Assembly (NCBI GenBank): GCA_015689645.1
Contig: WVSM01000012.1
Coordinates: 1-64,000 of the forward strand
Direction of reading: 5' to 3'
DNA from: Rhodobacterales bacterium HKCCE4037
GTDB lineage: Bacteria > Pseudomonadota > Alphaproteobacteria > Rhodobacterales > Rhodobacteraceae
DNA length: 64,000 nt
Translations under genes and position numbers: made by a program
Notes under the pieces: model-generated
Told to the model about the DNA's origin: nothing
What the model saw: only the letters and a program-made list of their open reading frames with translations
The model's database searches: none
Shown here: piece by piece, positions 50,148-64,000 of the stretch
How the letters are laid out: every line of letters begins with the position of its first letter
Position numbering within the stretch: position 1 is the stretch's first letter

Positions 50148-50205
50148 TCCGGGGGACGGTCAACGAAGACCGGGGCCGCAATGCCCCACTCCGGGGAGGC
50201 GGCAT

Positions 50206-51591
50206 TTGGCCAACTCACTGTCAGGGCGGTTTCTGATCCTCACCATCATCTTCGTGATGCTGGCCGAGATCTTCATCTTCGTGCCGTCCATTGCGCGGTT
50301 CCGCGAGGATTACCTCTTGGCGCGGCTGGAGCGGGCGCAGATCGCCTCACTCTCGCTGCTGGCGACGGACGGGATGATCGACGACGAACTGGAGGCGGAA
50401 CTGCTGGAGAACGCCGAGGTTCTGAACGTGGTCCTGCGGCGCGACGCGGTGCGGCAGCTTATCCTGTCGACCGACGGGATGGAGCCGATTTCGAACACCT
50501 ACGACCTGCGTGATCCCCCTGCATGGGCCCTGATCCGGGACGCGACGCGGAGGTTGTTCGAGCCCGAGAACCAGGTCATCCGGGTGATCGGGGAACCGGT
50601 GCGCGAGGCGGGTCTGCTGATCGAGATCACGATGGAGACCGAGCCGTTGCGTATGGCCATGATCGAATATGGCCAGCGCATCCTGCTTCTTTCGGCCGCG
50701 ATCTCGGCCTTCACGGCGCTTCTGCTGTTCTTCTCGGTCCGTGTCCTGATGGTGAACCCGATCAAGCGCGTCGTTGCCTCGATGATGAGCTACGCCGAAG
50801 CGCCGGAGGACGCCAACCGGATCATCCAGCCGCAGGGCTCGGTGCGCGAATTGCGCAATGCCGAAGAGGTGCTGAACGGGATGCAAACGCAGCTGACCTC
50901 GCTTCTGAAACAGCGCGAGCGGTTGGCGCAACTGGGCGAGGCGGTGGCCAAGATCAGCCATGATCTGCGCAACATGCTGTCGGTGGCGACGCTGGTGGCC
51001 GACCGGCTGGAAACCGTGCCCGACCCGACCGTTCAACGCATCGCGCCGAAGCTGATCAACTCGCTCAGCCGCGCGATCAACCTGACCGAGGCGACGCTGG
51101 CCTTCGGACGGGCGGAGGAACCCGCGCCGAAGCTTGACCGCGTGCCGCTGGAGCCGCTGATCGACGACGTGCTCGACAACGATAACCTCGCGCAGGGCGA
51201 TGGTGACGTCAGTTATTCCTCCGATGTTCCGCGTGACATGGTGGTGCGCGCCGATGCCGAGCAGTTGCACCGTGTGCTGTCCAACCTGGTGCGCAACGCG
51301 CGGCAGGCGATTGCCGCCACGCACATGCCGGGCGAAGTGCGCGTTGCGGCGCAGGCCGTCGACGGCGGCTGGTGCATCGAGATCTGCGATACTGGCCCGG
51401 GCCTGCCCCCGAAAGCGCGCGAGAACCTGTTCAAGCCGTTCTCCTCGGCGCAGAAAAAGGGCGGCACCGGCCTTGGGCTGGCGATCTGTTCCGAGATCGT
51501 CCGCGGCCACGGCGGCAAGCTGGAACTTAAGAAAAGCGATGCCGAGGGAACGGTGTTCACCTTGTTCCTGCCGGCGGGCATGACTGCCTGA
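50206..51591 (+). CDS. Membrane sensor histidine kinase
   Basis: 461 residues. TTG start with GGGGAGG upstream. TM1 (8-28), periplasmic sensor (29-155), TM2 (about 158-180), HAMP-like linker, H box AKISHDLRNMLSVATLVADR, N box SNLVRNARQAI, G boxes ICDTGPGLPP and KGGTGLGLAICSEI. No response regulator next to it, so an orphan kinase. It is the last core gene before tRNA-Arg and the island. Confidence 0.9.
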   Translation: MANSLSGRFLILTIIFVMLAEIFIFVPSIARFREDYLLARLERAQIASLSLLATDGMIDDELEAELLENAEVLNVVLRRDAVRQLILSTDGMEPISNTYDLRDPPAWALIRDATRRLFEPENQVIRVIGEPVREAGLLIEITMETEPLRMAMIEYGQRILLLSAAISAFTALLLFFSVRVLMVNPIKRVVASMMSYAEAPEDANRIIQPQGSVRELRNAEEVLNGMQTQLTSLLKQRERLAQLGEAVAKISHDLRNMLSVATLVADRLETVPDPTVQRIAPKLINSLSRAINLTEATLAFGRAEEPAPKLDRVPLEPLIDDVLDNDNLAQGDGDVSYSSDVPRDMVVRADAEQLHRVLSNLVRNARQAIAATHMPGEVRVAAQAVDGGWCIEICDTGPGLPPKARENLFKPFSSAQKKGGTGLGLAICSEIVRGHGGKLELKKSDAEGTVFTLFLPAGMTA

Positions 51592-51637
51592 TTGCCCCTT
51601 GCACTGGTCAGAGACCGGCGTTAAACGGACGCCTCGT

Positions 51638-51714
51638 GCGCTGGTAGCTCAGTTGGATAGAGTACTTGACTACGAATCAAGGGGTCGGGGGTTCGAATCC
51701 TCCCCAGCGCGCCA
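51638..51714 (+). tRNA. tRNA-Arg (anticodon ACG)
   Basis: 77 bases with encoded CCA. Acceptor GCGCTGG/CCAGCGC, anticodon stem CTTGA/TCAAG around loop CTACGAA, so anticodon ACG (A34 should be edited to inosine). T arm GGGGGTTCGAATCCTCC. It is the left boundary of a genomic island whose recombinase follows. Confidence 0.96.
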
Positions 51715-51916
51715 TTTCACATTTTCCCAGCTGAAACGCCTCTAAAGCCTTGAAAGGATAGGCCTTTTTAGGGGTTCGAAGTCCTTTTTCTCGCGAGTAT
51801 GCGACTCGCTCTGAAAACGCCAATCTGAGCACGATTCTCTTCATCGCGAAGTCCCCGGAAGTCCATATTTTCCAAGGGTTTGCGAGGAAGGTCATGGCGA
51901 GTTCGAACAAATCCTC

Positions 51917-53245
51917 TTAGGTATGTTTCGGTTTCCCCATTTTGGCGATCATTTCCTCCAGAACGAGCTTTTCGCGCTCCATCTTGGCGATGCGTGCTTC
52001 GTATGCCTTGGCCACTCGCTCATTTTCGCTGTCGACGATCCGGTCGACCAGGTCGTCGATCTTTTTGTCGATCTGCTTGATTTGGCTCTGAGCGCTACGG
52101 AGACGCGCTGAAGCCTGTTCGCGACGCTTTTCCCATACGTCCCTAAACATCGCCTTCACGAGCCCGTACAGACCCTCGGATGGCTGAATCTTGGCCAGTT
52201 CTGCCTCGAATTCTCCTTCGAGTTGATCCCGCTTGATGGATTTCCGATAGCTGGCGCAGCCCTTTGTCGGGCAGAGATAGTACGGGTGCTTCTTGCCGGT
52301 CTTGCTCGTCGACCAGCAGGCCGTCAGAGGCTTGTTGCAGTCATCACAGAGGACAAAGCCGCGCAGCGGGAAGTCTTCGTTGATGTCCTTGCGGGCGGAA
52401 GCCTTCGCGCCCTCCTTCAGCCGTTGTTGGATCTTCTCGAAAGACTGAAGCGAGATGAGGCCCTCATGGTGCCCCTTCCTCAAAGAGATTTCCCAGTTGG
52501 GAACTTCGATGTACCCAGTGTAGATGACGCGATTGAGCATCTCCAGAATCCGCGCATTGCGGATAGTGCCGTCTGGCAGGTCCTTCGGATAGTCGGGCTG
52601 GCTTTCGAGATAGCGTTTGACCTCGACTTGGCTTTGAAACCGCCCGGAGGCGAAGCCTTCGAGCGCTTCCTGAATGATCGACGCCTTAGGCTCATCCCTG
52701 ACCAGCATGTTACCATGGCCGGGGACGCGTTGATACTTGTAGCCGATAGGCGGCTGAAACACCCAGTACCCGTTGAGGGTGCGGGCGCGCATCCGGTTGA
52801 CGGTCTGCTCGGCATTCTTCTGGCGCTGATGCTGTGACACGCTCGCTAGAAGGTTCTCGACGAGTATCGAATCCGAATCTTCCCCGAATTCGATAGAAGG
52901 GCTTTCAAGCTTGCCGCCCGCGTTGCCCAACATGGTGCGCAGCTGAAGATGCTGCTCCAGCCCACGGGCCAGGCGGCTAATGTCGTCAATAATGACGATT
53001 GTGGGCTTCCGGCGCTGCTTCTTTAGGAAGGCCAGCATGTCTGACATGCCTTTCCGCGCTGACTTACTTCCGGTGATGTCGTCGGTGAAGACGCCGATAA
53101 CCTCATAACCCTTATGCCGCGCATATTCGCGGCAGCGCGTTTCCTGCGATCCGAGACCGTCGCCGCGCCTGACCTGTTTCTTGCCCGACACCCGGCAATA
53201 GATCACCGCGCATAGGTCTTCCAAGAATTCAGTTTCGTGTATCAC
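51917..53245 (-). CDS. Large serine recombinase
   Basis: 442 residues. Resolvase domain with catalytic Ser20 in AVIYCRVSGKKQVRRGDGLG and IVIIDDISRLARGLEQHLQL. Then the recombinase domain (about 165-270) and a zinc ribbon CDDCNKPLTACWSTSKTGKK...CPTKGC, then a coiled coil (SARLRSAQSQIKQIDKKIDD). It should integrate and excise the element. Its start overlaps the stop of the small gene upstream by four bases. Confidence 0.93.
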   Translation of the reverse strand: MIHETEFLEDLCAVIYCRVSGKKQVRRGDGLGSQETRCREYARHKGYEVIGVFTDDITGSKSARKGMSDMLAFLKKQRRKPTIVIIDDISRLARGLEQHLQLRTMLGNAGGKLESPSIEFGEDSDSILVENLLASVSQHQRQKNAEQTVNRMRARTLNGYWVFQPPIGYKYQRVPGHGNMLVRDEPKASIIQEALEGFASGRFQSQVEVKRYLESQPDYPKDLPDGTIRNARILEMLNRVIYTGYIEVPNWEISLRKGHHEGLISLQSFEKIQQRLKEGAKASARKDINEDFPLRGFVLCDDCNKPLTACWSTSKTGKKHPYYLCPTKGCASYRKSIKRDQLEGEFEAELAKIQPSEGLYGLVKAMFRDVWEKRREQASARLRSAQSQIKQIDKKIDDLVDRIVDSENERVAKAYEARIAKMEREKLVLEEMIAKMGKPKHT

Positions 53246-53571
53246 ATGTTCCTCCTTGGCGGCTTTGGCCCTCGGGGTTTTGCGCCGCTCTTGTTCGTTG
53301 CGTCGTCCCAGTGATCGACGATTGATGGTACCACATCGGCGGCGACTTCCGGGTTTTCATCGGCATCTTGTCCACAGCCTGCATCCGGCGACCGCACTTC
53401 GAATCCCATGTCGATGAAAGAAACGACTATGGACCACAGCGTTTCGATGACTTCGCGCTTTTCGGCATCGGTCAGGTCGCTTTCGTCAAAAAAATTGGCA
53501 TAGAGTTGCCAATCGACGGTCAGAGTAGGTCCGGCCTTCTTCGAGAATTCTATCTTAGCATCGTCTTTCAT
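53242..53571 (-). CDS. Small acidic protein coupled to the recombinase
   Basis: 109 residues from the ATG at 53571, which has GGAGGA upstream. Acidic, with one helical core (LTDAEKREVIETLWSIVVSF) and a Pro/Arg-rich end. Its 4-base overlap with the recombinase suggests coupled translation; a recombination directionality factor or partner is possible but unproven. Family not recognised. Confidence 0.65.
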   Translation of the reverse strand: MKDDAKIEFSKKAGPTLTVDWQLYANFFDESDLTDAEKREVIETLWSIVVSFIDMGFEVRSPDAGCGQDADENPEVAADVVPSIVDHWDDATNKSGAKPRGPKPPRRNM

Positions 53572-53797
53572 ATCGTCCTCCAGACGTTCGGGCTTCACCG
53601 ATGTGCCCCACATGGGCCGTCCGGGTCTGTGATGCTCCTGAAAAGCACCGCACCTCATTTACAGAATACCATTGAATTCAAAGGCTTCGCAAATTTAACT
53701 GTGCTGCGCTGCATCGCTGTCACGGCGGATTCGGAGCGACCAGAGACCCTGCTCTGGTACTACCAACGCGCATTGCCGTAGGTCTTTGGTAAAGGGC

Positions 53798-54592
53798 ATG
53801 GAGAGATTGTCAAACCGCATCACCCATCCGGTCGAGTGGCTCAAGGCGACAGAGGCCGAACGGGCGCGGCTCTATCATGTTGCCAAGGCCGTCATGGACA
53901 TCACCGGCAGCGCACCTGCGGACTTCTACCGCGCAAGCCTTGGCAAGGCGGTCGATCCCGTCACAACCAGCGGCAATTTCTCCCGTGGCAAGATCGCCCG
54001 GCGGCACGCCGCAATGATCTATGCCTGGATCGAGGAGCACCATCTGGACATCGGCTTAAGGATCGCGCCGGAACTGTTCTTCAAGCCCGCACGATCCTCT
54101 TGGCAAGAGCTCTTGAGCGACCGCGAGCAATACGGGGAACTGACGATCCGTCGTCTCTCAGCCCTCGGGCTTGTCCAGCCCGCCAGCCGGTTCCCGGTCG
54201 AGGAACGACCGCTAACCTTGGGCGAGCCGTTTGCGTTCTCGCTCCGGTGCGAACGCGACGGACAGGTCTTTGCGTTTCAGGAAACGCGCGGGTTCTGGCA
54301 TCTCTTTCCGCTTGGAGAAGACCCACAGTCATTCCTGCGCCCCTGTCGCGAGGGGGAGCAGGTCTTGCCGTCGCATGACGACGGATCACCGCTTCCCATT
54401 ATCGAGGCAGAAACTGACGGGCTACATTCATTTGTATTCATCCATTGTGAGATCGATACAGATGTCGCGCTTGACCAGTATGCTGGCCTTGCGTTGCGTC
54501 CAGAGCAGCTGGATGCCTTGGCCGTCTCACTTCTCTCCCAAGGCGGTACGGAGCTGGCCATCCATCGGGTCAATGTCCGGTTTGTGCGTTGA
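53798..54592 (+). CDS. Hypothetical island protein
   Basis: 264 residues from the ATG at 53798 (MERLSNRITHPVEWLKATEA; AAAGGG just upstream); a TTG four codons earlier is possible. The N-terminal 80 residues are helical with FSRGKIARRHAAMIYAWIEE, which could be a DNA-binding helix pair; the rest is a beta-rich domain (RPLTLGEPFAFSLRCERDGQ). It faces the putative metalloprotease gene tail to tail with 5 bases between stops. Confidence 0.65.
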   Translation: MERLSNRITHPVEWLKATEAERARLYHVAKAVMDITGSAPADFYRASLGKAVDPVTTSGNFSRGKIARRHAAMIYAWIEEHHLDIGLRIAPELFFKPARSSWQELLSDREQYGELTIRRLSALGLVQPASRFPVEERPLTLGEPFAFSLRCERDGQVFAFQETRGFWHLFPLGEDPQSFLRPCREGEQVLPSHDDGSPLPIIEAETDGLHSFVFIHCEIDTDVALDQYAGLALRPEQLDALAVSLLSQGGTELAIHRVNVRFVR

Positions 54593-54597
54593 TCTCA

Positions 54598-55620
54598 CTA
54601 ATCCGGCAATCCGATGGGCTTGATCACTGACAGCAACCGATCATTGAGCGGTTTCAGATCAGCCCATTGACGAGCGCCACGGGTCCCGAATGCGGTGGCG
54701 TCTCTGGCACCTTCACGCACAGCCCGGTCAATATCGGCCAGTAGAGATTGCAGGCTACCCATCTCGGTCCAGAGATCAGAAAGGCCCGCCGCATCCGCGA
54801 GGATTTGCCCTGATGCAAAGACGCGGGATACGACTTCGATATTGTAACCCTCCATCTCCTTGTCATCGGGGAGATATTCGGACGGAATACTCTCCAGCCC
54901 TTCCGATGCCGCGCGAAAATATGCGGGGATCATCGGAAGCTCGGCGAGATGACCTAGGAGCATGAACATCCGTGTTGCCGCCCATGGATGCGTCTCGCCC
55001 GAATTGCCAGCGTTTCGCTCTTCCCGTTCGATCAGAAGGATCACGGACAGAATGCAGGTCGCATAGTACCGAAACAGAACCCAGTTCTCGCTGGAATACG
55101 CCCCAAGCACGATCTCGGTTGCGTCATGGTCGGTTTGGAGCTCCAGGCACAGAGGCGCAAGTCGTCGCTCTTGCGGTGACAAGGCATGCAGCGGCGAGCC
55201 GCGAAGATCGAGGCGCGCCACAGCACCGAACACCGTCCGCGATCCGGCTTCGAGCAGGCCAGCGCCGTCGGTCAGGGAAAAGTGCCCAATGGCGTAGTGA
55301 TTGAGCTCGTGTTGCATGAGCCAACGGAGCGCCATGTCGACCGGATGCTGCGGACCGCCGAGCAGGTCGATGCCGGTGCCCTCGGGAAGATCGGCCGATA
55401 TGCCGAGCGCCGTATGCCAAGTCAGGGCGATTGCATCGACGACCCCTGTCGTCGCCTCAATCAGAATGCCGTCGCCCTCCGGAAAGACAGCAGCGTAGAA
55501 AGCAATATCCTCCAAGACCGCGAGGTTGACGGCTACGGGGAAAGCTGCACCGACGCGATCCTCATAGCGCTGCAGTGCAGCATCGAGCGCATTCTGAAGT
55601 CGTATTTCTTGCTGCGACAT
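54598..55620 (-). CDS. Putative HExxH metalloprotease
   Basis: 340 residues, cytoplasmic. Residues about 103-112 read HELNHYAIGH, an HExxHxxxGH zinc signature, and about 50 residues later LELQTDHDATEIVLGA supplies an E/D-x-x-x-D-x-x-A third-ligand motif, like M48/M78-type gluzincins. No signal peptide. No family that I can name. Two TGGTAGTACCA dyads lie directly upstream. Proteases of this kind in islands often cleave a repressor (ImmA style), but that role is inference. Confidence 0.6.
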   Translation of the reverse strand: MSQQEIRLQNALDAALQRYEDRVGAAFPVAVNLAVLEDIAFYAAVFPEGDGILIEATTGVVDAIALTWHTALGISADLPEGTGIDLLGGPQHPVDMALRWLMQHELNHYAIGHFSLTDGAGLLEAGSRTVFGAVARLDLRGSPLHALSPQERRLAPLCLELQTDHDATEIVLGAYSSENWVLFRYYATCILSVILLIEREERNAGNSGETHPWAATRMFMLLGHLAELPMIPAYFRAASEGLESIPSEYLPDDKEMEGYNIEVVSRVFASGQILADAAGLSDLWTEMGSLQSLLADIDRAVREGARDATAFGTRGARQWADLKPLNDRLLSVIKPIGLPD

Positions 55621-56105: not shown

Positions 56106-56147
56106 CTGTCGATGATGCGCAACACCATCGACAGTGCTATGTATAAA
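56106..56147 (+). promoter_or_regulatory. Promoter/operator of the defence operon
   Basis: Perfect inverted repeat CTGTCGATG (56106-56114) and CATCGACAG (56126-56134), 11-base spacer, followed by a TATGTATAAAG -10-like stretch (56138-56148). A repressor bound here would block the operon. No regulator is encoded next to it; the candidates are the island genes upstream. Confidence 0.5.
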
Positions 56148-56169
56148 GAAAAAATGGAGTCGCCTAGCC

Positions 56170-58896
56170 TTGAACGCAGTCGAAATAGAAGAAGCCATCT
56201 CGAACCTTGCGGGTCAGCTTTTTGATCCGGAGGAGTTCCCGTATGCATTCCTTCAGGCGTTCGGGAACAAGGACACGACCATCAAGCGCTTGCGATCGGG
56301 CGCGTCGAACAAATCCGACCTTGGCGGCATCCTTCAGAGCAGCAATATCCACATCAAAGTGTGCCCTGAAGGCCAAGTGACCGCGACACTGGCGGCGCTG
56401 AAGGCGAGCCCCACGACATCGCGCGCCAAGGCTAAGTTCGTTCTGGCGACGGACGGCAAGGAGTTCCAGGCTGAAGACCTGACCAGCGGTGAAGTCGTCG
56501 TCTGCGACTACCCAGACTTCCCGGATCACTTCGGCTTCTTCCTGCCGCTCGCGGGCATCTCGACCGTCAAGCAGATCCGCGAGAGTTCCTTCGACATCAA
56601 GGCAACTGGTCGCCTCAACCGTCTTTACGTGCAGCTCCTCAAGGACAACCCCGAATGGGGCACAGCCGAGCGCCGCCATGACATGAACCACTTCATGGCG
56701 CGGCTGATTTTCTGCTTCTTCGCGGAAGATACGGATATTTTCGAGAAGGCCGACCTGTTCACCTCAACCATCGAGACGATGAGCGCGTCTGACAGCTCCA
56801 ACACCCACGAGGTGATCAGCGAGCTGTTCCGCGCCATGAACACGAAGACGCAGGATCGCGGCGCTGCGGGCATTGCCCGATGGGCGAGTGTCTTCCCATA
56901 CGTGAACGGCGGGCTGTTCTCGGGCACAACAGACGTGCCGCGCTTCTCCAAGATCGCGCGCTCCTACCTTCTACATATCGGCAATCTCGACTGGAAGAAG
57001 ATCAACCCCGACATCTTTGGCTCGATGATCCAGGCCGTCGCGGATGACGAAGAACGTGGAGCGCTCGGGATGCACTACACCAGCGTGCCAAACATCCTGA
57101 AAGTGCTAAACCCACTCTTCCTCGACGATCTGCGTGAGAAGCTTGATGAGGCCGAAGACAATCCGCGCAAGCTTCTCAATCTGCGCAACCGTATGGCACG
57201 GATCAGGGTCTTCGACCCTGCCTGCGGCTCAGGGAACTTTCTTGTCATCGCCTACAAGGAGATGCGGGCAATCGAGGCCGAGATCAACAAGCGACGCAGC
57301 GAGGCCGACCGCCGCACTGAGATCCCGCTCACCAACTTCCGTGGCATTGAACTACGCGACTTCCCTGCCGAGATTGCGCGGCTGGCGCTAATCATCGCCG
57401 AGTATCAGTGCGATGTCCTTTATCGTGGCCAGCGCGAAGCCCTGCGGGACTTCCTGCCGCTTGACGCCATGAACTGGATTACCTGCGGAAACGCCCTGCG
57501 GATCGACTGGCTCAGCATCTGCCCGCCGACAGGAACGGGTGTTAAGATGCAGGGGGAAGACCTCTTTAGTACCCCCCTCGATCAGGCCGAAATCGACTTC
57601 GAGAACCAGGGCGGCGAGACCTACATTTGTGGGAACCCTCCATACAGAGGAAGCAAATGGCAATCCCCCGGGCAAAAATCAGATATGGAGGCGGCATGGT
57701 CAAGGCACCCGAAACTCGCCAAGACCACAGATTTCGTTGCTGGTTGGATTGCGCGATACTTCGATTACTGCCAAATCGTACCAAACGCCGTTGCCGCATT
57801 TGTGACAACAAACAGTATTTGCCAAGGGCAACAAGCGTCGGAGATATGGCCGATTGCCTTTGACAGAGGTATTGAGATTCGCTTCGCCCACGTCCCTTTC
57901 AAGTGGAGCAATTTGGCCAGTCAGAATGCTGGCGTAACTGTAATCATTCTTGGTCTTGCTCAAGCGTCTACGTCTCCGAAAATGCTCTACGGCGATGATT
58001 TGGTCCGCGAGTGCGCATCGATCGGACCTTACTTGGTGCCAAATCAATTAACGTCTGTCGCAAAGACGAATGAACCAATCGGCCCGAAGTCGAAGATGCT
58101 CTTTGGTAACATGCCACGTGATGGCGGACACCTATTTCTTAGCTCTGATGAAGCTCTTGAGCTTCGGAAGGATAGTCGCGTTGCGCACTTGGTTCGCCAC
58201 TTCGTTGGCTCCGAGGAACTGATAAATGGAAAGCAAAGGTATTGCCTTTGGATTGAAGCTGATGATGTTGAAGCTGCGTGTGAGAATGACTTCATCGCAA
58301 ACCGCCTCAGAAAAGTAGCTGCCAACCGGTTGGAGTCTCCAGCCCAGTCCACGCGGGACTTTGCCTCGCGTCCGCATCGTTTCGTTCAGATTGCTGGTTG
58401 GTCGGAGAGTAGAGCGATAGTAGTACCGAGAGTTTCATCGGAAAATCGAGAGTTTCTGCCGGTCGATTTGTTGTCTGAAGATTTCATTATCGGCGATAGA
58501 AACTTCGCCCTCTATGACGCTCCGATCTGGAACCTATCAATTATTGCATCACGCTTGCATTGGGTGTGGATTGGAACCGTTTGTGTGCGGATGCGAACCG
58601 ACTTTAGCTATTCTAACACTCTTGGTTGGAACACTTTTCCTGTTCCTAGTTTGACTGACAAGAACAAGGGCGACCTAACGCGTTGCGCGGAAGACATCCT
58701 TCTAGCACGCGAAGCACATTTCCCAGCAACTATCGCCGACCTCTACGATCCTGCGAATATGCCAGATAATCTTCGCGTCGCACATGACCGCAACGATGAA
58801 GTACTTGAGCGCATCTATATCGGTCGTCGATTCCGTAACGATACAGAGCGTCTCGAAAAGTTGTTTTCTCTTTATGATAAGGCAAGGACACAATGA
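56170..58896 (+). CDS. MmeI-like class I adenine-N6 DNA methyltransferase
   Basis: 908 residues from TTG at 56170 (GGAG upstream, after the -10-like stretch); a GTG at 56134 would add 12. Order: N-terminal domain with AFLQAFGNKDTTIKRLRSGA and FFLPLAGISTV, helical spacer, methyltransferase with HYTSVPNILKVLNPLFLDDL, SAM motif RVFDPACGSGNFLVIAYKEM and catalytic CGNPPYRGSK, then recognition and C-terminal domains. The PD-ExK-type nuclease that MmeI carries at its N-terminus is not visible, so cutting is probably by a partner. GC falls sharply after the NPPY motif. Confidence 0.88.
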   Translation: MNAVEIEEAISNLAGQLFDPEEFPYAFLQAFGNKDTTIKRLRSGASNKSDLGGILQSSNIHIKVCPEGQVTATLAALKASPTTSRAKAKFVLATDGKEFQAEDLTSGEVVVCDYPDFPDHFGFFLPLAGISTVKQIRESSFDIKATGRLNRLYVQLLKDNPEWGTAERRHDMNHFMARLIFCFFAEDTDIFEKADLFTSTIETMSASDSSNTHEVISELFRAMNTKTQDRGAAGIARWASVFPYVNGGLFSGTTDVPRFSKIARSYLLHIGNLDWKKINPDIFGSMIQAVADDEERGALGMHYTSVPNILKVLNPLFLDDLREKLDEAEDNPRKLLNLRNRMARIRVFDPACGSGNFLVIAYKEMRAIEAEINKRRSEADRRTEIPLTNFRGIELRDFPAEIARLALIIAEYQCDVLYRGQREALRDFLPLDAMNWITCGNALRIDWLSICPPTGTGVKMQGEDLFSTPLDQAEIDFENQGGETYICGNPPYRGSKWQSPGQKSDMEAAWSRHPKLAKTTDFVAGWIARYFDYCQIVPNAVAAFVTTNSICQGQQASEIWPIAFDRGIEIRFAHVPFKWSNLASQNAGVTVIILGLAQASTSPKMLYGDDLVRECASIGPYLVPNQLTSVAKTNEPIGPKSKMLFGNMPRDGGHLFLSSDEALELRKDSRVAHLVRHFVGSEELINGKQRYCLWIEADDVEAACENDFIANRLRKVAANRLESPAQSTRDFASRPHRFVQIAGWSESRAIVVPRVSSENREFLPVDLLSEDFIIGDRNFALYDAPIWNLSIIASRLHWVWIGTVCVRMRTDFSYSNTLGWNTFPVPSLTDKNKGDLTRCAEDILLAREAHFPATIADLYDPANMPDNLRVAHDRNDEVLERIYIGRRFRNDTERLEKLFSLYDKARTQ

Positions 58897-59906
58897 GGGC
58901 ATTTCTTCAAGATAGTGCCGCGGGCAATTCAACGCTTTCCGAAATTCACAAGGTGAATGGCGCTGTTTCTTCTAATGCTTTTTTTGGGTGCTATGCGTAC
59001 GCTACTCAGTCAGGGTTCCGAATATTTGAACTAAGTATGGGAGAAGAATTCTGGAAGCGCACGGCTTCACGATGGCTCTTTAGTATCGACTATGGCAGAT
59101 CAGATCCACGGGCGCTGAGGGAAGTTGCAAGCCGACAAAATTCAGAAGTGCGTATTTATGATGGCAATTTTGTAGTGAAAAGCCCCAACTTAATGCCGCG
59201 TCAAGACTTTCACCCGAAGGTAGCAATAATGGAGAATACGTTGTCGGGGTCGCAAGGCATGGTGCTTGGCTCAGGCAACTTTTCCTATAATGGACTTCGG
59301 CGTAGCGTCGAGGCCGGGGTGACCTTTACTGCCCTAAAGAAGTCAGACGCTAAAAAGTACATTAGGCCGGTCAAGTCAGGCTTTGAGGCGCTTTGGAGGA
59401 AGTCTTGCCCCCTGGGTAATATCATTCTTGACTACGAGAATATCTTGGCAGGTCTTATCTCCGCGAGGGATGCCCAGCGAGCTCTTATATCGAAGGGGTC
59501 GGCAAATGGCTTTTGGATTGAGGCGGGATATGTTACAAAAAATCGTGGCGTTGATAAGCCCGGAAATCAAATATTTGCTCCAACTGGTTTTCGCAAGTAT
59601 TTCGGTTTGAGCGGCACGAAGGGGGGTACGACGCTCATAGGTGAAATTTCTTTCGAGACTAAAGTTGGGCCGATTGTTAGAAAGAATTATAGAGAGAATG
59701 ATAACGGTATGGAAAAATTGACACTACCGATGCCAGAAGATCATGGCTTCGGTGTTTATGATGGAAAGGTATTGGTATTTGAGCGGAAAGGTGGAAGATT
59801 TCATTTATCAGCCATTGAGCACGGCGAGTTTGAGCGAGTTTATGGTCACCGTCTTGTCAACATCGACAAGATGGGGGGCGGTAGGCGCTACGGTGAGTAT
59901 ATCTAG
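58893..59906 (+). CDS. PLD-superfamily nuclease (BfiI-like)
   Basis: 337 residues. RQDFHPKVAIMEN then GMVLGSGNFSYNGLRRSVEA give His107, Lys109, Asn129 and Glu140, the half-site pattern of PLD-type restriction endonucleases, which dimerise to form one active site. The C-terminal 170 residues have no recognised domain. It overlaps the methyltransferase stop by four bases. Strongly A/T-rich (one 60-base line at 59641 has 35% GC by hand count). Confidence 0.8.
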   Translation: MRAFLQDSAAGNSTLSEIHKVNGAVSSNAFFGCYAYATQSGFRIFELSMGEEFWKRTASRWLFSIDYGRSDPRALREVASRQNSEVRIYDGNFVVKSPNLMPRQDFHPKVAIMENTLSGSQGMVLGSGNFSYNGLRRSVEAGVTFTALKKSDAKKYIRPVKSGFEALWRKSCPLGNIILDYENILAGLISARDAQRALISKGSANGFWIEAGYVTKNRGVDKPGNQIFAPTGFRKYFGLSGTKGGTTLIGEISFETKVGPIVRKNYRENDNGMEKLTLPMPEDHGFGVYDGKVLVFERKGGRFHLSAIEHGEFERVYGHRLVNIDKMGGGRRYGEYI

Positions 59907-59909
59907 GCC

Positions 59910-61955
59910 ATGACAAATGTACCCAGCGTCTCTGTCGTCTACGCCCGCAACGGCGGTTCGACCAAGTCGAACGAGCTTGGCATGCGTCCGATGCAGGAGC
60001 GCGCGTATGAGAAGAGGGGCGAGCAATATCTTCTGATTAAGTCCCCGCCTGCCTCGGGCAAGAGCCGCGCCCTGATGTTCATCGCGCTCGACAAGCTCCA
60101 CAATCAGGGGCTTCGCAAGGCTATCATCACAGTGCCCGAGAAATCTATCGGGTCGAGCTTTGCCGACGAGCCGCTTAGGAAATTCGGGTTCTGGGCAGAT
60201 TGGCACGTCGAGCCCAAAAGGAACCTGTGCAATGCGCCTGGCGCCGAGGGCAGCAAGGCTGACTCGGTCGGTGCATTCCTTAAGGGCGACGACCGTGTGC
60301 TGGTATGCCCGCATGCGACCTTCCGCAATGCAGTCGAGAAGTTCGGGGTCGAAGCCTTCGATGCTTGCCTCATCGCAGTGGACGAGTTCCACCACGTCTC
60401 GGCCAATCCCGAGAACAAGCTAGGCGCGCAGCTCGCCGAGCTGATTGCGCGCGACAAGGTGCATATCGTCGCAATGACGGGATCGTACTTCAGAGGCGAT
60501 GCCGAGCCCGTCTTGATGCCCCATGACGAGGCCAAGTTCGACACCGTCACCTACACCTACTATGAGCAGCTCAACGGCTATAAATATCTGAAGTCGCTCG
60601 ACATCGGCTACTACTTCTACACGGGCGCTTACTCGGATGACATCTTGAAGGTGCTCGACCTGACCGAAAAGACCATCATCCACATCCCGTCCGTCAATTC
60701 GCGCGAGAGCACGAAGGACAAGATTAGGGAAGTCGAGCACATCATCGAAGAGCTGGGAGACTGGCAGGGCACCGATCCCGCGACCGGCTTCCAGCTTGTG
60801 AAGACCGCAGACGGTCGGATTCTGCGCATCGCTGACCTAGTCGATGACGACGCCGCCAAGCGTGACAAGGTCTCGGCTGCGCTCAAAGATCCGATACAAA
60901 AGAACAACCGCGACCACGTCGATATAATCATTGCTCTCGGCATGGCCAAAGAAGGCTTCGACTGGATTTGGTGCGAGCACGCCCTGACGGTCGGTTATCG
61001 GTCGAGTCTGACCGAGATCGTGCAAATCATCGGACGCGCAACACGTGATGCGGAAGGGAAGACTCGCGCGCGCTTCACCAACCTGATCGCTGAACCCGAT
61101 GCGGCTGAGGCCGCTGTTGTAGAGGCTGTCAACGACACCTTGAAGGCCATCGCCGCCAGCTTGCTAATGGAGCAGGTTCTTGCGCCGCGCTTTAACTTCA
61201 CTCCGAAGACAACGACCAGCGGTCCCGTTGAAGGCTTCGACTACGGCGAGGGCGGCTACAAACCCGATCAGTGCAATGTCGGCTTCAACGAGGAAAGCGG
61301 GCAGTTCCAGATCGAGATCAAAGGTCTTGTCGAACCGAAGAGCAAGGAAGCCGCGCGCATCTGTCAGCAGGACTTGAACGAGGTGATCGCGACTTTCGTG
61401 CAGGACAAGACCACCATCGAGCGCGGCCTGTTCGACGAGGAGCTTGTGCCCGAAGAGCTGACCCAGGTTCGAATGGGCAAGATCATCAAGGAGAAGTATC
61501 CTGAACTTGACGAAGAGGATCAGGAAGCTGTACGGCAGCACGCCATAGCGGCACTTAACCTCACGCAGAAGGCCAAAGAGATTGCGCTTGGAACGACCAC
61601 GGATGAGGTTGCTCCATCCAACACTGCGCTAATCGACGGTGTCCGCAAGTTCGCGATGGACGTCCGCGACCTCGACATCGATCTGATCGACCGGATCAAC
61701 CCGTTCTCTGAAGCCTATGCGATCCTTGCCAAAACCATGAGCGAGGAAAGTCTCAAACAAGTGGCGGCCGTGATCTCTGGCAAAAAGGTGCAGCTCACAC
61801 CCGAAGAGGCACGCGATCTCGCCAAGCGAGCGTTGAAGTTCAAGCAGGAGCGTGGTCGGTTGCCCTCAATTACCGCATCCGATGCCTGGGAGAAACGCAT
61901 GGCCGAAGGCGTTGCTTTCCTTGCGCGCATGAAGGCGGAGGCAGCCAATGGCTAA
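59910..61955 (+). CDS. SF2 DEAD/DEAH-type helicase
   Basis: 681 residues. Walker A LIKSPPASGKSRALMFIALD (about 46-52), motif II LIAVDEFHHVSA (DEFH), motif III VAMTGSYFRGDAE, motif VI EIVQIIGRATRDAEGKTRAR. It resembles the translocase subunits of multi-gene restriction systems. The last 270 residues are a helical C-terminal region with no nuclease motif seen. It starts 3 bases after the PLD gene and overlaps the GIY-YIG gene by eight. Confidence 0.88.
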   Translation: MTNVPSVSVVYARNGGSTKSNELGMRPMQERAYEKRGEQYLLIKSPPASGKSRALMFIALDKLHNQGLRKAIITVPEKSIGSSFADEPLRKFGFWADWHVEPKRNLCNAPGAEGSKADSVGAFLKGDDRVLVCPHATFRNAVEKFGVEAFDACLIAVDEFHHVSANPENKLGAQLAELIARDKVHIVAMTGSYFRGDAEPVLMPHDEAKFDTVTYTYYEQLNGYKYLKSLDIGYYFYTGAYSDDILKVLDLTEKTIIHIPSVNSRESTKDKIREVEHIIEELGDWQGTDPATGFQLVKTADGRILRIADLVDDDAAKRDKVSAALKDPIQKNNRDHVDIIIALGMAKEGFDWIWCEHALTVGYRSSLTEIVQIIGRATRDAEGKTRARFTNLIAEPDAAEAAVVEAVNDTLKAIAASLLMEQVLAPRFNFTPKTTTSGPVEGFDYGEGGYKPDQCNVGFNEESGQFQIEIKGLVEPKSKEAARICQQDLNEVIATFVQDKTTIERGLFDEELVPEELTQVRMGKIIKEKYPELDEEDQEAVRQHAIAALNLTQKAKEIALGTTTDEVAPSNTALIDGVRKFAMDVRDLDIDLIDRINPFSEAYAILAKTMSEESLKQVAAVISGKKVQLTPEEARDLAKRALKFKQERGRLPSITASDAWEKRMAEGVAFLARMKAEAANG

Positions 61956-63144
61956 GCACTTCACCGACGCAGATGATGAACTACTGGCCGAGCTTGGTGT
62001 AGAGGTTGAGACCAAGACGGCGTCCAGCCATACACCGCGTGAGGAGCGCATCATCGCGGGCTTCGAGGAGATCCAGCGCTTCGTCGAAGAGCATGGCCGC
62101 GTGCCCCAACACGGGGACGAACGCGACATCTTCGAGCGCCTTTATGCTGTTCGGCTTGATCGCATCCGCGAGCAAAGCGAATGCCGCAATCTCCTCGAAT
62201 CCCTGGATCATCAGGGCCTTCTCGTCGGAAGTGCTGCCTTGCCAACTGCGGTAGAGGATAATCTGGACGACGATGCTCTCCTCGCACAGCTTGGCGTGGG
62301 CACCGAGACTTCGCCGATAACAGACTTGAAGCACGTCAGGCCGAGTGCCGAAAAGCGGGCAGCCGAAGAAATCGCCAACCGTCAGAAGTGCGAAGACTTC
62401 AATAAATTCAAGCCGCTGTTCGATACTGTTCAGAAAGAGATTTCATCCGGACTGCGGACAACGCGTCGGTTCGAACGAAAGGCTGAGATAGCGCCTGGAA
62501 ACTTCTTCATCGTCAACGGCCAGAAGGCCTATGTTGCCGAGATGGGAGAGGACTTTCTGACCCCCCAGGGCATGACCGATGCGCGTCTGCGCGTGATCTT
62601 CGACAACGGCACCGAGAGCAACATGCTGATGCGGTCCCTTCAGCGCGCCCTCCACAAGGACGAGGCTGGACGGCGCATCACCGAGCCCAATGCGGGCCCA
62701 CTCTTCGCTGACCAGACCATCGACGGCGATGAGCCAAGCGGAACGATCTATGTCCTGCGAAGCAAGTCGGACTTGCCGATTGTCGCGGAGAACCGTGATG
62801 TTGTGCACAAGATCGGAGTTACCAGCGGCAAGGTTGCACGGCGCTTAGCAAACGCGAAGCTCGATGCAACCTTTCTGTTGGCAGACGTAGAGATCGTAGC
62901 AACTTACGAGCTCTTCAACATCAACCGCTCAAAGCTTGAGAACCTGATCCACCGCATCTTCGAACCTGCGCGTCTCGATATTGAGATCAAGGATCGGTTT
63001 GGTAACCCCGTTGTGCCGCGTGAGTGGTTCTTGGTACCTTTTGCTGTTGTGGATGAAGCGGTCGAACGGATCAAAGATGGTAGTATCAAGCAATACAATT
63101 ATGAACCAAGACAAGCCCGACTTGTGGAAAGGCAGTCCACATGA
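61948..63144 (+). CDS. GIY-YIG nuclease-family protein
   Basis: 398 residues. The C-terminal domain (about 262-375) has GTIYVLRSKSD as the first strand, VVHKIGVTSGKVARRLANAK with the conserved Arg, and the Glu in RSKLENLIHRIFEPARLDIE, as in T5orf172-type GIY-YIG domains. The N-terminal part is acidic with two related stretches (DDELLAELGVEVETKT at the start and DDALLAQLGVGTETSP about 108 residues on), probably interaction motifs. It overlaps both neighbours. Confidence 0.82.
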   Translation: MAKHFTDADDELLAELGVEVETKTASSHTPREERIIAGFEEIQRFVEEHGRVPQHGDERDIFERLYAVRLDRIREQSECRNLLESLDHQGLLVGSAALPTAVEDNLDDDALLAQLGVGTETSPITDLKHVRPSAEKRAAEEIANRQKCEDFNKFKPLFDTVQKEISSGLRTTRRFERKAEIAPGNFFIVNGQKAYVAEMGEDFLTPQGMTDARLRVIFDNGTESNMLMRSLQRALHKDEAGRRITEPNAGPLFADQTIDGDEPSGTIYVLRSKSDLPIVAENRDVVHKIGVTSGKVARRLANAKLDATFLLADVEIVATYELFNINRSKLENLIHRIFEPARLDIEIKDRFGNPVVPREWFLVPFAVVDEAVERIKDGSIKQYNYEPRQARLVERQST

Positions 63145-64000
63145 AGATAAAATCCTATATCAGCAACGGCGAATGGCTAGAGGAAGCACAGCCTCCAGCG
63201 CTTGAACGCGACGAACGCGGAGAGGAAAACGCTGAAGATCGGCCTGACCCTGCGCGCCAAGAGATTGACCGTGTTTTATCTGACGTAATTCGTTCGAAGA
63301 GCCTTATTGTCCTCACCGGTCTTGGCACATCGCTTTGTGTGAAAGACAATGCAGGCAACACGAAGGCACCTACTATGGGCGTTCTCTGGGAGGCCGTCCG
63401 AGACTATTTTTCAGCAGGGGGTGAAGATCGACCGACCTGGCAAGAAGTGATTCAAATTTCGCGTCAGCCAGAAGGCAACGAGAACATTGAAGAGCTGCTT
63501 TCTCGTGCAAAAATCGCAGAGTCGTTCGAAACAGGTAGTGCCCAAGACAAGATTGGTCGATTCATCGCCGGAGCGGAGAATATCATAAGAAGGAAGGTTG
63601 ATTTCCTTGAGCCCAATGAGGAGTTGCCGATCCACCAGTCTTTCCTTCGACGCCTCGCAAGACGATCCGTAAAGCGTGAACGTCTCAAGCTCTTTACAAC
63701 TAACTACGACCGTTGCTTTGAGCACGCGGCGCAACGAACTGGTTTCGTCGTCATGGATGGTTTCACGCTCTCGCAGCCTTCGATATTTGATCCAATGCAT
63801 TTTGCTTACGACATTGTGCGAAAAGGCAGTGAGGCGGACGCGCCAGACTATATAGAGAATCTATTCCAGTTATTCAAGATTCACGGCTCCGTTGACTGGG
63901 AGATTGATGAGGCGAGCAAAAAAATAAGAAAGTCTCCAGGAACAGACAAGCCACTTCTAATCTATCCGCGCAGCACAAAATATGAGCTTGCATTTGCTCA
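63141..64000 (+). CDS. SIR2-domain protein (partial, cut by window edge)
   Basis: 286 residues visible, no stop before the edge. SIR2-like NAD-binding motifs: SLIVLTGLGTSL (58-64), KLFTTNYDRCFEHA (TNYD 187-190) and FQLFKIHGSVDW (HGS 248-250), the Asn and His used for NAD cleavage by defence SIR2 domains such as ThsA. It probably depletes NAD+ when triggered. It starts inside the GIY-YIG stop (ATGA overlap), so it belongs to the same operon. A HerA-type ATPase partner may follow outside the window. Confidence 0.85.
   Translation, partial: MKIKSYISNGEWLEEAQPPALERDERGEENAEDRPDPARQEIDRVLSDVIRSKSLIVLTGLGTSLCVKDNAGNTKAPTMGVLWEAVRDYFSAGGEDRPTWQEVIQISRQPEGNENIEELLSRAKIAESFETGSAQDKIGRFIAGAENIIRRKVDFLEPNEELPIHQSFLRRLARRSVKRERLKLFTTNYDRCFEHAAQRTGFVVMDGFTLSQPSIFDPMHFAYDIVRKGSEADAPDYIENLFQLFKIHGSVDWEIDEASKKIRKSPGTDKPLLIYPRSTKYELAFA

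Follow-up and report, generated by a model that had tools for sequence, protein, structure and literature searches.

A DnmA-type methyltransferase–helicase–GIY-YIG core with a PLD nuclease and a SIR2–HerA pair on a tRNA-Arg island of Rhodobacterales bacterium HKCCE4037

Homologues of MmeI that lack the nuclease and lie beside yeeB and yeeC were described by Morgan et al. in 2009, as recounted in the passages of two later papers drawn on here, which also mention a type I-like system as suggested for the dnmA–yeeB–yeeC cluster and state that V. crassostreae (a Vibrio species) became more sensitive to some phages upon deletion of dnmA and of yeeB (PMC7261158, PMC9973331). Enzymes of the MmeI family methylate one strand of an asymmetric site, according to the portion of a further report used here (PMC3874165). 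A locus of this kind was analysed at the end of a 64,000-nt stretch of contig WVSM01000012.1 from Rhodobacterales bacterium HKCCE4037, the whole of which is referred to as the window. Its five open reading frames (ORFs), all on the + strand, encode a methyltransferase (MTase), a PLD nuclease, a superfamily 2 (SF2) helicase, a GIY-YIG protein, and a SIR2 protein, and the first-pass annotation had read them as one modification-guarded defence system. The genes are probably not one machine, but a restriction–modification (R-M) core with an accessory nuclease and an appended SIR2–HerA pair. The reading favoured here, with rather better than even confidence, is of a layered cassette on a tRNA-Arg island, in which a DnmA-type core is joined by a PLD nuclease acting at the same site as the MTase and by a separate SIR2–HerA system.

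Gene content of the cassette

The genes of the cassette are as follows.

56134..58896, + strand: MmeI-family (DnmA-type) adenine MTase without a nuclease domain; five MmeI Pfam domains, target recognition domain (TRD) at residues 640-840
58893..59906, + strand: PLD nuclease whose C-terminal part is a B3-like recognition domain, as in BfiI and R.NgoAVII (by predicted fold), between MTase and helicase
59910..61955, + strand: SF2 helicase with DEAD/ResIII domains (YeeB type)
61948..63144, + strand: GIY-YIG protein with MUG113/T5orf172 domains (YeeC type)
63141..64000 in the window, + strand: SIR2-family protein, 402 aa in full, the gene leaving the window and running on to contig position 64349
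Contig 64353-66047, outside the window: HerA ATPase, 564 aa, 3 bases after the SIR2 gene

The coordinates and junctions of the five ORFs were as first annotated, with a 4-base overlap between MTase and PLD, a 3-base gap between PLD and SF2, an 8-base overlap between SF2 and GIY-YIG, and a 4-base overlap between GIY-YIG and SIR2. The domain calls for the helicase, GIY-YIG, and SIR2 proteins also stand. The contig runs 2363 bases beyond the window (to 66363), and because the SIR2 gene continues past the window edge with HerA 3 bases on, the cassette consists of six genes: the trio, the PLD gene, and the SIR2–HerA pair. For comparison, the best 80 of at least 540 confirmed helicase stretches in genome contigs were taken as core loci. 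The 8-base overlap between SF2 and GIY-YIG genes was seen again in 52 of the 59 core loci in which both genes were assigned by script, so the arrangement is not due to chance.

By domain content and order, and without comparison to the B. subtilis sequences, the trio of MTase, SF2 helicase, and GIY-YIG protein matches the already described dnmA–yeeB–yeeC cluster, a point missing from the first-pass annotation. B. subtilis matched PF20473 in a control search. The gene order is conserved in relatives; in the window the PLD gene intervenes before the helicase. Helicase relatives were found in 264 plasmid records, in 34 of the 394 family genomes with that of HKCCE4037 counted, and in 25 viral-contig loci, and a plasmid homologue with 70% identity (H38) is annotated YeeB. 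The Walker A lysine of the helicase (K51) is present and invariant in a small alignment.

All five MmeI Pfam domains are present in the MTase, which scores 449 bits against the MmeI structure 5hr4. The protein aligns with 5hr4 from residue 96 onward only, and neither D-X9-E-X-K nor E-X-K was found anywhere in it, so the fused nuclease is gone, as first proposed. The gene was called from GTG 56134; TTG 56170 is possibly the true start, as homologues matched by tblastn align from residue 8 or 13 on. A weak match of the MTase to DrmMI (2e-21) and one of the PLD protein to DrmC (0.011) were the only links to DISARM. No DrmA helicase or DrmB (DUF1998) match was obtained in the six genes. No HsdS match was obtained in them either, and their content is not that of BREX, so the earlier exclusion of DISARM, type I R-M, and BREX is upheld.

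The PLD assignment falls below the Pfam cut-off by sequence and rests on the predicted fold, which resembles BfiI with a B3-like domain and has R.NgoAVII (4rct) among its best matches. One HxK occurs in the whole protein, and H107, K109, S127, N129, and E140 are invariant across 11 aligned sequences. Identity to the PLD domain of SauUSI is 28% over 162 fold-aligned residues. The PLD protein occurs in 6 of the 80 core loci and its relatives in 2 of 394 family genomes. Matches came from 10 of 385 genomes class-wide and 8 of 398 phylum-wide (own included in each of the three counts), and outside the own genome they align only in part and fall on other PLD proteins; tblastn gave no core protein at eight such loci (L190-L195, L212, and L213), and in L211 the PLD relative sits between proteins of 651 and 302 aa. 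Searches of viral contigs and phages confirmed no PLD relative. On a Paracoccus plasmid (L177:8001-8255) a homologue was matched by a C-terminal piece only, 49% identical to the window protein. Relatives also adjoin other MTases with an MmeI-type TRD, namely full MmeI on Methylobacterium and Methylorubrum plasmids and DrmMI in a Methylocystis DISARM locus:

L174:3929-9032; L175:5080-8945; L176:5080-8945; L189:4131-7996: BfiI-like PLD genes next to a DISARM MTase or MmeI-type enzymes, methylotroph plasmids

Slot turnover and the target of the PLD nuclease

The PLD gene is an accessory of the trio, sitting in a slot in which relatives hold other genes. The MTase gene lies upstream of the helicase gene in 77 of the 80 core loci, with a gap of at most 20 bases in 30 (empty slot) and of more than 200 bases in 47. 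In 39 of these 47 an ORF on the same strand lies next to the MTase gene, starting with a 4-base overlap in 29 of the 39. The slot genes come from many unrelated families, including RhuM, Schlafen-AlbA with RecG-C, YhcG, GmrSD_N, an AbiE pair, PDDEXK_4, a CoiA-like protein, and PLD, together with a T5orf172-like protein below the cut-off and families of 137, 260, and 277 residues without a Pfam match. RhuM, YhcG, and a 208-aa slot family match PADLOC "PDC" models, which we take to denote phage-defence candidates. The 137-aa family (L059:9579-9992 and relatives) shows a GADF...QLK pattern that appears PD-(D/E)XK-like by eye. The 277-aa family (L113:9159-9992 and relatives), which is linked to TRD type, was rejected as a nuclease: its alignment shows an RNYIH motif that by eye appears HEPN-like.

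When slot content was mapped onto a helicase tree (70 of 82 rows labelled, the other 12 having no recognised slot gene or no usable MTase), 37 changes were needed against a shuffled mean of 37.98, with 73 of 300 shuffles at or below 37, and helicases that are 97-98% identical carry different slot contents. On the MTase tree (59 of 67 rows labelled; the L164 MTase was cut at its N terminus by the script), 30 changes were needed against a shuffled mean of 34, a value as low being reached in 0 of 300 shuffles; for occupied slots only, the figures were 24 and 26.65 (9 of 300). Slot content is therefore random on the helicase tree and less so on the MTase tree.

Covariation was measured from pairwise identities at the eight loci that hold both a PLD gene and the core. 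Identity in the B3-like domain tracks identity in the MTase TRD (rho 0.61, p 0.006) but not that in the helicase (0.15, p 0.16), the GIY-YIG protein (0.22, p 0.12, seven loci), or the N-terminal part of the MTase (0.19, p 0.15); the nuclease domain of PLD also tracks the TRD (0.54, p 0.013). Along the MTase the correlation peaks at residues 721-840 (0.59-0.60) and falls to 0.26 (p 0.07) in the C-domain, which is nearer the PLD gene, and this speaks against mere linkage. When L080 and L088 are left out, rho is 0.92 (six loci). L064 and L112 carry PLD at different places, yet match in TRD (0.72) and B3 domain (0.69), with helicases at 0.80. Loci with PLD are alike in TRD type (mean 0.552, reached in 0 of 2000 random sets), and no such clustering was found for the 137-aa, RhuM, Schlafen, 260-aa, YhcG, or empty loci, the comparison being confined to near full-length MTases (Schlafen 4 of 6, 260-aa 3 of 4, YhcG 3 of 4).

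That the PLD protein is an independent embedded defence gene, with a target of its own unrelated to the MTase site and merely using the expression of the operon, is somewhat unlikely. The random distribution of slot content on the helicase tree fits such a gene, RhuM, YhcG, Schlafen-AlbA, AbiE, and GmrSD_N genes occupy the same slot, and embedding of this kind is published for TgvAB and DarTG2 in type I operons, in the excerpts of those papers used here (PMC11411939, PMC12255303). Weaker covariation in subsets points the same way. It is countered by the B3 domain following the TRD even in L064, where 3.6 kb separate the MTase gene from the start of PLD, and by the PLD relatives next to MmeI itself and DrmMI.

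Several observations weigh against a PLD nuclease matched to the MTase and against an active core. The eight loci fall into three similarity groups, and rho drops to 0.36 without L173 and L069 and to 0.35 without the window and L173 (six loci each). Stretches of the MTase outside the TRD correlate too, at residues 121-200 (0.37) and 481-560 (0.45), both with p 0.02. L060 groups with L080 by its B3 domain (0.62) and hardly by its TRD (0.54), and TRDs like that of the window occur with other slot contents (L133; L115 and L104 at 0.63-0.64). The helicases of PLD loci, too, are slightly closer to one another (p 0.02), and the unrelated 277-aa family shows TRD clustering as well (0.564, p 0.001, near-duplicates L113/L127 included). 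The structure model of the helicase, with a pLDDT (predicted local distance difference test) of 60, is too poor for use. Finally, dnmA–yeeB–yeeC of B. subtilis showed no restriction of the plasmid or of the phages against which it was tested, as given in the passages of the two papers drawn on here (PMC7261158, PMC9973331).

The G+C content at third codon positions (GC3) of the MTase gene drops from about codon 480 through the TRD and climbs back at the helicase gene, which looks as if TRD halves had been imported. The drop is shared across the MTase family, in 22 of 23 empty-slot loci and 34 of 34 occupied ones (65 loci). Low GC3 in the TRD and the slot genes is a general feature and not peculiar to PLD. 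A joint arrival of TRD and PLD was accordingly no longer read from it, as the empty-slot loci drop alike, and this too counts against a PLD nuclease paired with the TRD.

In the layered cassette favoured here, the DnmA-type MTase would methylate a single strand at an asymmetric site. Unmarked DNA would be restricted, in a type I-like manner, by the SF2 motor together with the GIY-YIG nuclease. The PLD protein would be a restriction endonuclease of the BfiI/NgoAVII type whose B3-like domain reads the site of the MTase, and on this proposal one MTase would shield the host from two nuclease machines. What the analysis shows directly is gene content, the slots and their turnover, the predicted PLD fold, and the covariation; the common target site, the cleavage, and the loss of NAD are inferred. 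The part of the first-pass annotation that saw a modification-guarded system is plausible; the single five-gene machine is improbable. A bolder extension, held tentatively, is that the core serves as a platform for docking, with a plug-in port at each of two stop–start overlaps. Port 1 would take complete restriction nucleases matched to the MTase target, so that one MTase licenses two mechanistically different machines at the same site, nuclease and TRD moving together while the motor stays, and port 2 would take whole abortive systems.

The SIR2–HerA pair and the island

The SIR2 and HerA proteins match PADLOC models (PDLC04075, 1.4e-88; PDLC04103, 1.4e-182), and since their genes are adjacent they represent the known SIR2–HerA pair; the SIR2 protein, initially counted with the four genes before it, belongs to this downstream pair, which is half of the counter-case that the first-pass annotation itself had named. 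PDB entries 8wld and 8su9 are among the matches of both proteins, and 8wld holds SIR2 and HerA chains. SIR2 residues N188 and H248 are invariant in seven aligned sequences. Of the 394 family genomes, 19 (own included) contain a SIR2 relative, and at all 7 other loci examined (of 17 further genomes with SIR2) a HerA match adjoins the SIR2 gene, two of the matches being partial; no match to the core proteins was found in the 3-11 kb flanks of these seven loci. In the layered cassette the pair would be a separate complete system in a second slot, answering infection alone by NAD loss.

This second port behind the GIY-YIG gene could be judged in 56 of the 80 loci; in 21 the script left the GIY-YIG gene unassigned. 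The port holds SIR2–HerA (window, L164, L066, and L067), DRT3 (Drt3a and Drt3b in L059, relatives of Drt3a in L058 and L062), an effector associated with prokaryotic Argonaute (pAgo; L060), or PLD (L064). PLD and SIR2–HerA are separable from the core and from each other: genome G295 (L164) carries the core and SIR2–HerA at 70-90% identity without PLD, and plasmid pOB3b2 of Methylosinus trichosporium OB3b carries the core and PLD with no SIR2 within the 17 kb shown. Among 137 loci, many with short flanks, none but the window's own copies combined PLD with SIR2, and of the 394 family genomes only the own one has both. A conserved five-gene operon was accordingly rejected, no second case having appeared in the loci and genomes examined.

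A single system of all six genes, with SIR2–HerA depleting NAD once restriction has failed, is rather improbable. The 4-base overlap of the SIR2 gene on the GIY-YIG gene, seen in the window, L004 (the same locus as L164), L066, and L067, fits such a unit, and beyond this tight junction nothing supports the proposed NAD depletion when cutting fails. SIR2 relatives are present in just 2 of the 80 core loci, no core was matched in the flanks of the seven family SIR2 loci mentioned, L164 lacks PLD, the port also takes DRT3 and the pAgo-associated effector, and the best SIR2 models differ between loci (PDLC04075, PDLC04090, and PDLC04085). A single ATP-dependent enzyme of PLD and SF2 like CglI or NgoAVII (R plus N/H subunit), with GIY-YIG as an auxiliary, is improbable, even with R.NgoAVII among the top fold matches and with CglI and NgoAVII combining an MTase, a PLD-B3 R-protein, and a DEAD ATPase and cutting asymmetric sites, as stated in the part of that report used here (PMC4267653).

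The cassette lies in an island with the following further features.

51638..51714, + strand: tRNA-Arg(acg) gene, marking the edge at which the island integrated
51917..53245, - strand: large serine recombinase (Resolvase, Zn_ribbon_recom, and Recombinase domains)
56106..56134, strand not assigned: inverted repeat with 9-bp arms and an 11-base loop, just 5' of the MTase gene

Insertion at the tRNA-Arg gene is indicated by the main match to window positions 50200-53900, which stops between 51714 and 51725 in all 12 other genomes compared from the genus. The serine recombinase is likely the integrase of the island. G+C content is 0.60-0.67 upstream of 52000 and 0.49-0.61 downstream of it. The inverted repeat is a possible operator: arms of at least 9 were found in 7 of 66 upstream regions against 0.2 expected from shuffles, with differing sequences. 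As a common element the repeat was rejected, its sequence not being found in the other upstream regions examined.

Two further proteins are encoded nearby. One of 340 aa (54598-55620, - strand) contains a HELNH motif that resembles zinc proteases by eye and gave a weak PADLOC Lit match (E 1.6e-4), with no Pfam family matched; the other, of 268 aa inside the island (53786-54592, + strand), has no Pfam or NCBIfam match. The last 311 bases of the contig (66051-66363, L002:6051-6363) recur at the end of contig C22 (L172:5945-6255) with 96% identity, and this repeat, which flanks two loci, may have broken the assembly. By eye, contig C22 carries another defence-like set, consisting of a 297-aa DNA methyltransferase, a 670-aa SNF2-like helicase, and a 277-aa protein.

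Relation to described systems

Defence genes embedded in R-M operons, the DnmA–YeeB–YeeC core, and SIR2–HerA are all already known. Embedding is reportedly also treated in an "embedded" preprint by Payne et al. (2024), cited in the papers on TgvAB and DarTG2. A literature search outside preprints and most subscription journals returned no report that couples PLD to YeeB/YeeC or describes slots in this core. The analysis turns a list of five genes into a testable scheme of a poorly understood core, a possibly matched second nuclease under the same mark, and a separate suicide system. The debated activity of DnmA–YeeB–YeeC could be tested in a version with its own accessory nuclease, and the slot points to the 137-, 260-, and 277-residue families without a Pfam match as candidates for defence screens. 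If PLD and MTase do share a site, specificities would become readable from natural domain pairs.

Of the described systems, DnmA–YeeB–YeeC of B. subtilis has the same nuclease-less MmeI-family MTase, SF2 helicase, and T5orf172/GIY-YIG protein in the same order, in the passages drawn on here (PMC7261158, PMC9973331), to which the window adds PLD between MTase and helicase and SIR2–HerA behind. MmeI (type IIL) shares the five Pfam domains, the window MTase being without the N-terminal nuclease motif. The single-HKD PLD domain with a B3-like recognition domain, given by the predicted fold of the window protein, is shared with BfiI and the R-proteins of NgoAVII and CglI; SauUSI also has a PLD domain, but in a single polypeptide with a helicase, unlike the window. 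The SIR2–HerA defence pair has the same SIR2 protein with N188/H248 and an adjoining HerA ATPase, whereas in the window the pair overlaps a GIY-YIG gene that belongs to a different system. Type I R-M operons with TgvAB (PMC11411939) or DarTG2 (PMC12255303), as far as the excerpts used here describe them, likewise hold foreign defence genes between modification and restriction genes; here the host is instead the MmeI/YeeBC trio, and the PLD nuclease seems matched to the specificity of the MTase.
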